Shown: piece by piece, positions 1,870-6,254 of the stretch
Layout of the letters: each line of letters begins with the position of its first letter
Numbering within the stretch: position 1 is the first letter of the stretch
IMG/VR virus record: IMGVR_UViG_3300020165_000023
Span: 1-59,488 of that record
DNA: 59,488 nucleotides
Origin: a virus
Reading direction: 5' to 3' (one strand)
Made by a program: the position numbers and the translations under genes
The notes under the pieces: generated by a model
Told to the model about the DNA's origin: nothing
Database searches by the model: none
The model's input: only the letters and a program-made list of their open reading frames with translations

Positions 1870-3990
1870 TTAGCGAACGTACTGATCAGCCAACATGGTA
1901 GCGTGCGGAGACATTGAAACTTCGTTCATTACTGTGGTGGACTGATTAAGCGTACTGTTGTTCTGTGTAGACGTATCAACCACAACGGTTGTAGACGCCG
2001 CAAGGTCATTGAGTTGGCTTTGCGGCGTTGCTATTTGTTCAGCTCGCATTGATACCGTACGTACATTGATATCACTCAGCTGACTTGCACCAGAAGAGAT
2101 TGCATTCAACTGATCCATTGCCACAACCAGTTCATCTAGTCGCAGAGACGGATCAAGCAAAGAAGGAATGTCTTTACCAAACAGTTTAGACTCACCTGTT
2201 GACAAGCTTTCGATCAGTGGAACCGCTTTCTGAATGTTCTTGATCAAACCTTTAAAGTCTGCATCACGTACATCAAATTTAATATCAGAGAACTTATTGA
2301 GTGCATCTGTGATAGACTCGAGGCCTGTAGATACCTTCTGTAGGTCGTCTACGTTGTCCGTGAGACTTGTGATAGCTTTGATTGGTGATTTATTACCGCT
2401 AAAGAAGTTAAAGATTTTTGCACTTATATCACCAAGAGCCGCAAAGTTTTTAGCAATTGTGAAAGCAGCAATACCACCAGAAATAGCAGTCATTACACCT
2501 AGGAATTTGGTAGCTTTACCTTCATCTGCCAACTCAGTGACTGTAAGAAGTTTAGATACGTTATCAACAATACGATCTGCAAAGCTTGTTTCACGGAACA
2601 TATCAATGGCTTGTGTGATTTGGTTGCCACCTTCACCAATAGCAAATGCTACCAAGCCGCCAGATAAGATACCCATATTCGTAGCAAATTGACCTACATC
2701 ACTTAATGGAATCTCGCTGATGCTCAACAACGTCATTACATTGTCTTTGATCCGATCTGCAAAGCTCGTTTCGCGGAAGATATCAACAGCCTGTGCTGCT
2801 TGACTAACACCTTCACCAAAAGCGAATGCAGTAAGACCAGCACCCAAACCACTCAATGCCAGTGCAACAGAACCGCCTTTAGCCAGCATTGAAAGATTGC
2901 CACCAGCTTCATTAGGAATACTAAGCAGCGTCAATACATTGTCTTTGATGTTTTGCGCCCAATTAGCAGAAGTGAAGTTGCCAATAGCATCACCTGCACC
3001 TGCTGCAATAGAACCAAGCCCAAACAAACCAATGCCTACACCCAGACCACCAAGAGCCAAAGCGACGGCACCACCTTCAAATAGCATGCTGAGGTTACCA
3101 CCAACAGCTTCTGGAATAGAAAGCAACGTAGCAACATTATCACGGATTGATTGAGCAAAGTTTGCATTGGTAAAGTTGGTAAGTGCATCGCTCAAACCGG
3201 CAATAGCAGAGCCGCCGCCGAAGATAGCAAGACCGAGGCCGATACCGCCAAGAGCTGTAGCTACAACAGCAACATCGCCAATACCGTCAACATCATTCTT
3301 GATAGCAAGAATCTGACCGACGTTTTCACGTACCGCTGCACCATCCAGTTCATTGACTGCAAAGAGCAAACCAGCGATACCTGCAGCACCAATGCCTACA
3401 CCTGCACCTGCTGCACCCAGACCGATACCAATACCACCTAAACCGAAACCAAGGCCTGCACCCAAACCTAGACCACCAGCAAGACGTGAAAGAAGACCTC
3501 CGCCTCCACCGCCAGATGTTGTGCCTGCATCTGTCACAGATACTTGTGCACTACCACGTTGCAAACGAGCTTTACGACGACGTTCAGCTTCATCCAGGGA
3601 ATCACCAGCAAGTGCATTAAAGAGTTTATCAAAACCGTTTGCACTGATATCACGCAACTCATAAAGAGTTTCGTTCATGCGATCGAATCCATCAAGCGTT
3701 ACATTATAGGCAGGTGATTCAAACATATCACCATTAGATAATGTTTCTTTTACCTGATCATTACCTTCTTCAAAGATAGTAGATACGTTATCGTTAACCG
3801 TCATGGCAGACGTCGAGATAAGACGAGAGATGCTTGCATCAAACGAAGCGGCGAGTGCAGTTGTAGTTACACCCATCACAGAACCGAAAGCTTCAGCCTG
3901 TTCCAATGCATTCTTCTTCAATGCCCGGTTAGTATTCCGGTTATTGAGTTTGAGACGATGGATTACGTCGTCTAATGTAGCATCTGCCAT
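1870..3990 (-). CDS. Tape-measure-like tail protein (gp29 position)
   Basis: This 706-residue protein is translated just after the gp26 frameshift ORF; its ATG is 3 bases past that stop. A glycine/alanine-rich hydrophobic core (about residues 155-500) holds roughly five tandem modules of about 65-70 residues. Each ends in a phrase such as RDNVATLLSIP, KDNVLTLLSIP, KDNVMTLLSIS or VDNVSKLLTV. The alternating hydrophobic and helical segments, the length, and the position directly after a chaperone-like frameshift gene all fit a tape-measure protein, which sets tail length and occupies the tube. T4 gp29 is 590 residues. I do not recognise close sequence similarity, so the role is inferred from context. 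The gene ends base-to-base against gp32. Confidence 0.55.
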   Translation of the reverse strand: MADATLDDVIHRLKLNNRNTNRALKKNALEQAEAFGSVMGVTTTALAASFDASISRLISTSAMTVNDNVSTIFEEGNDQVKETLSNGDMFESPAYNVTLDGFDRMNETLYELRDISANGFDKLFNALAGDSLDEAERRRKARLQRGSAQVSVTDAGTTSGGGGGGLLSRLAGGLGLGAGLGFGLGGIGIGLGAAGAGVGIGAAGIAGLLFAVNELDGAAVRENVGQILAIKNDVDGIGDVAVVATALGGIGLGLAIFGGGSAIAGLSDALTNFTNANFAQSIRDNVATLLSIPEAVGGNLSMLFEGGAVALALGGLGVGIGLFGLGSIAAGAGDAIGNFTSANWAQNIKDNVLTLLSIPNEAGGNLSMLAKGGSVALALSGLGAGLTAFAFGEGVSQAAQAVDIFRETSFADRIKDNVMTLLSISEIPLSDVGQFATNMGILSGGLVAFAIGEGGNQITQAIDMFRETSFADRIVDNVSKLLTVTELADEGKATKFLGVMTAISGGIAAFTIAKNFAALGDISAKIFNFFSGNKSPIKAITSLTDNVDDLQKVSTGLESITDALNKFSDIKFDVRDADFKGLIKNIQKAVPLIESLSTGESKLFGKDIPSLLDPSLRLDELVVAMDQLNAISSGASQLSDINVRTVSMRAEQIATPQSQLNDLAASTTVVVDTSTQNNSTLNQSTTVMNEVSMSPHATMLADQYVR

Positions 3991-3993
3991 TTC

Positions 3994-4182
3994 TTATCTC
4001 TTTTGCTTTTGTTTCTCTAATTCTTCTTCAAGATATTCATTAAGCAGCATGATGTAAATTTCTCTCTCCCACGGCACCATATTCTCTAGTTCACCTAATG
4101 AATATTTATGGTGTTGCATCAACTGGAAATTTGTCTTAAAGTAGTTGATGATCGAGTTATGAGAAAGAGCTATTGAAAAAAA
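3994..4182 (-). CDS. -1 frame extension of gp26 (gp51/T-domain-like)
   Basis: On the minus strand this frame has TGA at 4185-4183, immediately before the slippery run, and is then open to TAA 3996-3994. A -1 slip would add 60 residues (SIALSHNSIINYF onward) to gp26, giving a product of about 305 aa. The extension contains QLMQHHKYSLGELE and VPWEREIYIMLLNEY and ends in a charged helix (EEELEKQKQKR). This looks like the T part of tail-chaperone G/GT pairs and like small hub-assembly proteins at this place in T4-like phages. The first in-frame ATG (4119) has no ribosome site and would give only 41 residues, so independent translation is less likely. The TAA is 3 bases before the tape-measure ATG. 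Confidence 0.6.
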   Translation of the reverse strand, partial: FFSIALSHNSIINYFKTNFQLMQHHKYSLGELENMVPWEREIYIMLLNEYLEEELEKQKQKR

Positions 4183-4910
4183 TCATTGGTCCCCTTAAGT
4201 ACCAACTTATTGTCGTGTCCGCACGTATTACATTTCCACTCAATCGTATGTGACAATTCAGGAATCTGTGATACAAAGTCTTTGAGCAGGTTGAACTGAG
4301 CAGATGTAAACTGCTCGAGGAATGCTTTCATGTCGTCCATGCTATATTCAGATGCATCGATCTTGTCATCGTCACCGACCATGATATATTCGATACAAGA
4401 TACGATAGCCGAGAACATTGCATTAACTGCACGCTCTGATTGTGACTCAGAATCTTGTACTGTTGCATGAGCAACCAGGTTCTCATAAGACGGGTAACGC
4501 ATCTTTAAAGATACATCATCAGTAATCTTAATTACGTTCTTTGCTTTCTTAGTGATAGCAGGCGCTTCAATCTTATCAAAGGCGAGTGTGTGCTCTTGCT
4601 TACCGTCACAGCCATCTGCTTGACAGGAAAGCTGTACATCGATCGACTCACCAACAGACTTCGATCGAATCTGGAGGAACATGTATTCGATATCAAACGT
4701 TGCCAACTTATGCACTGTACCGCTATAACCAACCAAACAAGATTCAATCGTATTAGCAATGGTGTTAAGCATCATCTTTGGATCACCAGATTCCAAAGCT
4801 AGCATCATTACCTTCTCTTCCTTAACCAGGTAAGGTCGGTATGTGACTTCTTCGCCAGTAGAAGGGATTGTCAAAGTGTAGTTAACTGTATCATTAATTT
4901 TAGGTAACAT
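4170..4910 (-). CDS. gp26: Baseplate hub assembly protein gp26 (T4_baseplate family)
   Basis: This 246-residue protein (T4 gp26 is 208) takes part in assembling the central hub. The N-terminus has the family pattern TGEEVTYRPYLVKEEKVMML and, further on, FDIEYMFLQIRSKSVGE. It carries four zinc-ribbon-type cysteines in two pairs: SCQADGCDG and WKCNTCGHDN near the C-terminus. The start at ATG 4910 has GGAG upstream. The gene lies 16 bases after gp54 in the minus-strand operon. The last sense codons are GAT TTT TTT CAA TAG, so normal termination yields this product and a -1 slip on the T run yields a longer one. Confidence 0.8.
   Translation of the reverse strand: MLPKINDTVNYTLTIPSTGEEVTYRPYLVKEEKVMMLALESGDPKMMLNTIANTIESCLVGYSGTVHKLATFDIEYMFLQIRSKSVGESIDVQLSCQADGCDGKQEHTLAFDKIEAPAITKKAKNVIKITDDVSLKMRYPSYENLVAHATVQDSESQSERAVNAMFSAIVSCIEYIMVGDDDKIDASEYSMDDMKAFLEQFTSAQFNLLKDFVSQIPELSHTIEWKCNTCGHDNKLVLKGTNDFFQ
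4176..4196 (-). other. Putative programmed -1 ribosomal frameshift signal
   Basis: In the sense of the minus strand, an SD-like AAGGGG (4196-4191) is followed after 8 bases by seven T (4182-4176). In the gp26 frame this is T TTT TTT, a fitting X XXY YYZ slippery heptamer, and TAG follows two codons later. An internal SD upstream of a slippery run is known to stimulate -1 frameshifting in dnaX. The -1 frame is open for 60 codons. An ATG four bases after AAGGGG is in the third frame and stops after nine codons, so the SD does not serve an obvious start. Confidence 0.6.
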
Positions 4911-4926
4911 GATTTACTCCATTATG

Positions 4927-5670
4927 TTACTGAGCGGTTTCCCACCGAGTGTAAGCAATGTCAACAGTCATTTCAACAACTGTATCCTGGCTAGCATCTG
5001 CCAACTGGATCGACTGAATAGATTTAGGAAAAGCATCGATAAGCTTTACCTTATATATGCCTTTATTATCATTCTTATTTAGCTGCGAGATTGTAATGTC
5101 TCGTGCATACTGATTCTTATATGAAACTTCGTGAATGTCTGTACCAATGATGTTGTTCTGCCAGACATAGAAGTAAGTGAAAGCTGTGTAAGCGTTGTCG
5201 AGACGGAACGTCATGGTTACATCATCCTCAACAAAACCATATGGCATTGCTTGTGTTACCATACCGATTGTGCGGTCAATGGTTGTAATCTGACGACCAG
5301 GCATGTTAACACCTGTACAGAACAAAGATGTGCGACGTGCAGGGTTAATGTCAAGCTTAGGACCGAATGGAAGACCAAAGCGATTAGCCAGGTCGATTAC
5401 ACCCTGTGCTTGCTGAGTGATACCAACACGCTCGAGAACGGGATCAACAAAAGAACCGACCAAAGGAATGTCACGTACTTCTTGCAGAATGTTATCCAGA
5501 CCACCAAGAATATCAAAGTTAACCGGCTCAGAACCAGTCAGAATGTTAAACAGGTTACCAGATGCACCGGAAGAAATCATGGACTGCAACGGAGGTAGCT
5601 GTACTTCGAACCGGTCAGCCAATGCAAAACCAGAAGTGATGTTAGCTTTGAGTTCGTCGATCGAAGCCAT
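4927..5670 (-). CDS. gp54: Baseplate tail-tube initiator gp54-like
   Basis: This 247-residue protein (T4 gp54 is 320) has a tail-tube-like fold and would form the ring on the baseplate from which gp19 polymerises. The C-terminal half carries the tube-family pattern: FCTGVNMPGRQITTIDRTIG, then VTMTFRLDNAYTAFTYFYVW, then an ending with VVEMTVDIAYTRWE. The N-terminus (ADRFEVQLPP) is also tube-like. Its ATG overlaps the stop of the upstream gene by one base, and gp26 follows after 16 bases. It could instead be an unnamed tube-fold baseplate protein. gp48 lies on the other strand at 6830. Confidence 0.58.
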   Translation of the reverse strand: MASIDELKANITSGFALADRFEVQLPPLQSMISSGASGNLFNILTGSEPVNFDILGGLDNILQEVRDIPLVGSFVDPVLERVGITQQAQGVIDLANRFGLPFGPKLDINPARRTSLFCTGVNMPGRQITTIDRTIGMVTQAMPYGFVEDDVTMTFRLDNAYTAFTYFYVWQNNIIGTDIHEVSYKNQYARDITISQLNKNDNKGIYKVKLIDAFPKSIQSIQLADASQDTVVEMTVDIAYTRWETAQ

Positions 5671-6254
5671 TATACTGCCTTTCGTGAGTCAGCCCATACC
5701 GCTTTGGTACTGGACTTCTTAAAGTCTGCAATTGGTAGGAATGCAACTGTTTCCCAATCAGCAGGATTGATTGTACCGAACTGTGAACGCATGTGCTTGT
5801 CAAGATAGTGCTTAACACATGGCTCGAAGTATTTTGTCTTAGAAGATCGCTTAAGCATTTCGTACGTAGCTTTGAACCGAGTAGATTCATTATACTTTTT
5901 GTTGTTGGTCATATCCATCAGACCGTCAAGAAGCTTGGCACGTAGAACTGGTGGTAAGTAATGCAGGTTCAAACCGAGGAAACCATCTTTAGCTGGTCCA
6001 AGTACGATTACAAGCGGGAACCTATCATAGTAAGGCAGTGTGGCTTTGTGCTTAGGGTCGTAGAAGAACACACCCATCTTGCCAACCATTGGCTCACCCT
6101 TCTTGACTACATCCTTATCTCGAAGCAATGCACGACGGTTCATGCCACCAACACTTAAGTCGGAAACCTTATTACGGAACCAGTCAACAGAGCGGTTGAT
6201 CTTACCTTTATCACCACCACTCAGCTTACGCAGCTTATCGAAAATACCAGCCAT
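5670..6254 (-). CDS. Conserved T4-like protein, possibly DNA end protector gp2
   Basis: This 194-residue basic protein has the pattern GKMGVFFYDPKHKATLPYYD, RFPLVIVLGPAKDGFLGLNL, HYLPPVLRAKLLDGL and KTKYFEPCVKHYLDKHMRSQ, ending in ADSRKAV. I recall this pattern from T4-like genomes next to gp4, where it is sometimes labelled DNA end protector gp2. T4 gp2 is 274 residues, so the match is not certain. In T4, gp2 binds the packaged DNA ends and protects them from RecBCD, and it sits beside gene 4, consistent with this position. It has its own late promoter at the end of gp4, and its stop overlaps the gp54 start (TAATG). Confidence 0.5.
   Translation of the reverse strand: MAGIFDKLRKLSGGDKGKINRSVDWFRNKVSDLSVGGMNRRALLRDKDVVKKGEPMVGKMGVFFYDPKHKATLPYYDRFPLVIVLGPAKDGFLGLNLHYLPPVLRAKLLDGLMDMTNNKKYNESTRFKATYEMLKRSSKTKYFEPCVKHYLDKHMRSQFGTINPADWETVAFLPIADFKKSSTKAVWADSRKAV

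Follow-up and report, generated by a model that had tools for sequence, protein, structure and literature searches.

The gp26-type gene of the virus studied here very probably encodes a tail assembly chaperone pair, TAC-N and TAC-NC, through -1 ribosomal frameshifting at a run of seven T near its 3' end. The majority of ribosomes would stop at the gp26 TAG and release the short TAC-N, while a minority would shift into the -1 frame at T TTT TTT and append 60 residues, yielding a TAC-NC of about 305 aa. The analysed stretch of DNA, referred to as the window, is the whole of IMG/VR record IMGVR_UViG_3300020165_000023 (59,488 nucleotides). A sequence-only reading of this DNA had proposed a -1 frameshift fusing gp26 to a gp51-related part, and this proposal is strongly supported by comparison with relatives, in terms of the run, the -1 frame and the homology to T4.

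Layout of the locus

On the minus strand, gp26 ends in GAT TTT TTT CAA TAG, and AAGGGG precedes the T run at a spacing of 8 nt (ACCAATGA). The features of the locus are collected in Table 1. Direct reading of the bases agreed exactly with what had been claimed for the gp26 end, the T run, AAGGGG and its spacing, the TGA, the 60 open codons and the TAA. Fusion of gp26 and the extension is predicted to give a protein of 305 aa. The locus belongs to a minus-strand block (1870-6254) of genes for a gp19-type tail tube, a phrog_429 DNA end protector-like protein, the chaperone and a tape-measure-like protein, which is convergent with a plus-strand 308-aa ORF at 943-1869.

Table 1. Features of the gp26 locus and its junction (window positions).
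Feature	Position	Strand	Evidence
gp26-type gene, predicted short product TAC-N, 246 aa	4170..4910	-	PF12322 E 9.6e-56, phrog_150 E 2.9e-55
TAG, zero-frame stop of gp26	4170-4172	-	sequence
Slippery heptamer T TTT TTT	4176-4182	-	sequence; T TTT TTN in 35/35 clusters, 87/90 sequences
TGA, -1-frame stop abutting run	4183-4185	-	sequence
AAGGGG, SD-like, probable stimulator	4191-4196	-	recoding test and GGG enrichment
-1-frame extension, 60 codons and TAA (3996-3994)	3994..4176	-	phrog_634 E 3.9e-26, T4 gp51 204-244, 25-relative alignment
706-aa ORF, probable tape-measure protein	1870..3990	-	position, length
T4 gp19-type tail tube protein, directly upstream of gp26 gene	4927..5670	-	PF06841 E 2.6e-7, phrog_45 E 2.9e-38

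Conservation of the run and the -1 frame

We assembled a comparison set of 90 sequences from the window, 79 metagenomic relatives (of 80 viral contigs retrieved for their gp26 relative, 79 extend to the end of the gene) and 10 isolate phages. The heptamer was scored in frame within the last 25 codons of gp26, and the 87 sequences bearing it formed 35 clusters with extensions <90% identical. An in-frame T TTT TTN near the gp26 end, followed by the same -1-frame domain, was found in 87 of the 90 sequences and in all 35 clusters, counts that refer to sequences related by descent and not independent. Alignment of the junction in relatives, which had been suggested as a check, thus found both the slippery run and the open -1 frame kept. 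The final codon of the heptamer is TTT, TTC, TTA or TTG depending on the cluster, so the amino acid is free to change while the heptamer is retained. With the encoded amino acids and the genes' codon usage taken into account, a heptamer has a mean probability of 0.38 per cluster, and its presence in every cluster would be very unlikely by chance were the clusters independent, which they are not.

Substitutions in the extension are clearly of the coding type and track the -1 reading frame. Mean pairwise mismatch across 27 clusters was 0.31, 0.18 and 0.53 at codon positions 1, 2 and 3 of this frame, with third positions the most and second positions the least variable. In an alignment of the extension in 25 relatives, conservation at the protein level starts exactly at the run.

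Two kinds of relatives had been named beforehand as arguments against frameshifting. Only in three near-identical contigs (L028, L029 and L054; about 3681-3693) is the T run lost while the -1 frame persists; these read TCG TTT TTT TAG and have G TTT TTT (or T TTT TAG) in place of T TTT TTN together with the -1-frame domain. Their G TTT TTT is similar to the GTTTTT motif of other myovirus chaperone genes. A single-frame gene with its own start replacing the extension was found in none of the relatives, the T4 duplication aside.

Within the window, an open -1 frame is by itself weak evidence, because at least 50 open -1 codons follow the stop of 28 of the 105 long ORFs (stop-to-stop, 100 codons or more). 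Among the same 105 ORFs, gp26 is the only one with both an open -1 frame and a T TTT TTN among the last 15 codons, and each strand of the whole window contains a single run of seven T. We place the junction above chance level because of the in-frame heptamer across the comparison set and the substitution pattern of the -1 frame.

Relation to T4 gp26 and gp51

Searched by itself, the extension matches phrog_634 ('baseplate hub assembly catalyst', gp51) as well as the final part of phrog_150. No second PF12322 gene is present in this 59-kb virus record, possibly a fragment. The T4 strain RB55 and Klebsiella phage KP1079 each have two separate, divergently placed genes, 26 and 51; both products are PF12322 proteins, and the extra C-terminal domain is present in gp51 only. 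RB55 gp51, encoded in one frame, aligns with the predicted 305-aa fusion through the junction (BLASTP E 3e-7), and the profile of the extension aligned with T4 gp51 at residues 204-244 (hhalign, probability 79%, E 1.5e-5). Since the first ca. 200 residues of T4 gp51 are another copy of the gp26 family, gp51 is the counterpart of the whole fusion. The description of the extension as gp51-like is therefore right as to relationship and needs narrowing as to extent: it corresponds to the C-terminal domain of T4 gp51 and not to all of gp51. In T4 each of the two products has a gene of its own, gene 26 for the short one and gene 51 for the long one.

The gp26 proteins of RB55 and KP1079 retain the FF motif at their end, coded there as TTC TTT, and the slippery run is absent. 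The absence is an argument that, in the other phages, slipping and not the encoded amino acids is the reason why the T run is retained. In a tree of gp26 and gp51, T-even gp26 and gp51 fall on one side, as they would after a duplication in that branch. Since support is moderate, branches are long and the root was placed at the midpoint, we do not claim the timing of the duplication as shown.

Candidate stimulatory elements

SD-likeness was measured over the 15 nt ending 5 nt 5' of the run in the 35 clusters and compared with 1000 synonymous recodings. The longest SD match had a mean of 4.46 versus 4.10 in the recodings (sd 0.10, max 4.37, with kinship between rows ignored), so that the observed SD-likeness exceeded every single recoding. 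The otherwise rare glycine codon GGG is enriched at the SD-like site (7/34 versus 7/201). AAGGGG is probably a stimulator of the -1 slip and would act by pairing with the translating ribosome. Downstream of the run, an alignment of 26 sequences gave no consensus RNA structure under a pseudoknot-free model, and single sequences folded into weak, differing hairpins with z-scores of about -1.6 to 0.8. A conserved downstream hairpin was rejected on these grounds.

Alternative explanations

The extension is annotated in many isolate records as a separate small gene ('gp51'), which would have its own start and be translated by termination-reinitiation at the gp26 stop. We consider this improbable for the window, where the earliest start codons of the extension frame (TTG/ATG) are found at codons 19-20 of 60, within the conserved core. 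Across the comparison set, 17 of the 35 clusters, the window's included, have no ATG, GTG or TTG in the first 20 extension codons. Of the 35 clusters, a single one has a start codon in the interval from the upstream -1 stop to the run, and in 11 the -1 stop abuts the run. Protein conservation from the run onward, the in-frame position of the run in every cluster and the one-frame joining of the same domain to a gp26-like part in T4 gp51 all speak for a continuous product. In 8 of 35 clusters an ATG or GTG does occur among the first seven extension codons, and reinitiation or coupling may thus add to expression of the extension in those phages.

Even less probable is transcriptional slippage, in which RNA polymerase would insert an extra base at the T run and ribosomes would read the fused frame from the altered mRNA. 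The seven T of the window would suit such a process, whereas more than half of the clusters have six T only (TTTTTTC, TTTTTTG or TTTTTTA), which is short for polymerase slippage; moreover, the conserved feature is a codon-phased heptamer, and the upstream SD-like element points to the ribosome. Lastly, homopolymers are prone to errors and, as described above, open -1 frames past a stop are not rare in the window, so that a sequencing error or a pseudogene might be considered: either a miscounted homopolymer would have split a single-frame fusion, or the gene would be a decayed remnant. Against this, 35 divergent clusters, which include isolate genomes, show an identical frame relation, and the -1 frame carries a clear coding signature. 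The comparison refutes this explanation, to which we give next to no credence. Ribosomal frameshifting on T TTT TTN is the explanation we retain.

The downstream gene and the probable chaperone function

The sequence-only reading had placed a tape-measure gene 3 bases past the extension. The spacing is as claimed, with an ATG at position 3990 that lies 3 nt past the extension TAA, and the 706-aa ORF starting there is probably the tape-measure gene judging from its position, its length and weak matches of tape-measure profiles to its counterparts in some relatives only. A long ORF is found 3' of the extension in most relatives. Identification via T4 gp29 was dropped, as profile comparison of gp29 with the 706-aa ORF gave no detectable similarity. 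One or two small ORFs separate the extension from the long ORF in Pelagibacter phage Mosig (L004 1686-2088), Agrobacterium phage OLIVR5 (L095 2332-2697) and Sinorhizobium phage phiN3 (L087 1690-2109), so a direct junction of extension and long gene is not universal.

gp26 and the extension were modelled as two separate chains. The gp26 model is a confident one (pLDDT 88) and was compared with solved folds, where 2OB9, the HK97 tail assembly chaperone, came second by E-value (0.28, below significance) and had the top probability (0.72), with a TM-score of 0.41 by target. The HK97 chaperone is the most plausible candidate for a solved fold related to the gp26 model. Against viral structure models, the matches of gp26 were gp26 and baseplate hub assembly proteins. 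The extension is predicted to consist of helices. Searching for solved relatives by sequence gave no credible match. The T4 proteins gp26 and gp51 are classed as chaperones of hub assembly, the latter being needed for assembly yet missing from the final particle (PMC3004832).

Implications

It is fairly likely that the wider T4 superfamily ancestrally makes both tail chaperones by a -1 frameshift on T TTT TTN, and that the T-even branch swapped this arrangement for a duplication (genes 26 and 51), with gene 26 then losing the run while keeping FF. Such an ancestral frameshift would span marine Kyanoviridae-like phages, Vibrio and Aeromonas giants, rhizobial and Stenotrophomonas phages, and possibly CBB-type jumbo phages. 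Frameshifting at the gp26 end also explains the T4 'hub assembly catalyst' gp51 clearly, namely as the long form of the chaperone. It further shows that numerous marine T4-like phages have mis-annotated genomes, in which the C-terminal domain of the long form is entered as a tiny gene of its own or overlooked. The conserved run also makes the short-to-long ratio in these phages open to direct test.

Pectobacterium phage CBB, a jumbo phage, encodes a distant PF12322 protein with AAT TTT TTC near the gene end, and the -1 frame is open for ca. 65 codons past its stop (L094 2200-2456). In Dickeya phage LIMEstone1 (Ackermannviridae; L093 2280-2441), a -1-frame ORF of 50 codons comes after the gp26 homologue, the junction reads GAA ATT TTC ATT TAATG, and the annotated next gene is gp5 and not a tape measure. 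Since a canonical T run is absent and TAATG forms an overlap, this junction fits reinitiation better.

Comparison with known systems

In lambda, gpG and gpGT share a common part that coats the tape-measure protein, and the extra domain of gpGT recruits the tail tube subunit; the slippery heptamer is G GGA AAG. By analogy, the common part of the two products described here would coat the tape-measure protein, and the added helical domain would recruit the tail tube subunit. As in lambda, a short and a long form would come from one gene by a -1 slip just 5' of a tape-measure-like gene, whereas the heptamer is T TTT TTN, the phages belong to the contractile-tail T4 superfamily, and similarity in sequence to the lambda proteins is not to be expected. 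The T4 proteins gp26 and gp51 are of the same family (PF12322/phrog_150), and the long form alone carries the same C-terminal domain; T4 differs in using two divergent genes with no slippery run, where the window has one gene and a -1 site for both products.

Among Kyanoviridae, gp26/'gp51' pairs such as those of S-PM2, S-RSM4 and Pelagibacter phage Mosig share the gene order, the run and the -1-frame domain. Their records give the domain as a separate gene or omit it, and their gp26 proteins are at most about 40% identical to that of the window. The -1-frame domain is unannotated in S-WAM1 (NC_031944.1; L003 1495-1695) and is a separate 'gp51' gene in others, e.g. S-PM2. The TAC locus of Vandenendeviridae and Andersonviridae has a putative poly-T (GTTTTT) -1 site and an open -1 frame reaching to the tape-measure gene (PMC12846349). 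We liken it by description to the present locus as a myovirus TAC gene with a poly-T -1 site, the product being predicted in both; these are other phage families.

The general principle of frameshifted tail chaperones is already known and is also discussed for T4-like phages. Passages in PMC10885494 and PMC9024508 cite Xu, Hendrix and Duda (2004) for -1 frameshifted tail chaperones as a general phage feature. The suggestion that such an arrangement had not been described for T4-like gp26 does not hold, as tail assembly chaperones of T4-like phages were already identified by Vladimirov, Gautam and Davidson (2022; doi 10.1016/j.virol.2021.11.003), according to passages in PMC10885494 and PMC12846349. 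From the same study, PMC10885494 relates that some T4-like phages do not frameshift but carry a short gene plus a longer, fused one, and PMC12846349 that TAC-N genes of T4-like phages contain poly-T -1 signals. The breadth over which the T TTT TTN site is found, and the loss of the run at the codon level in T4-type gene 26, may go beyond this published record.
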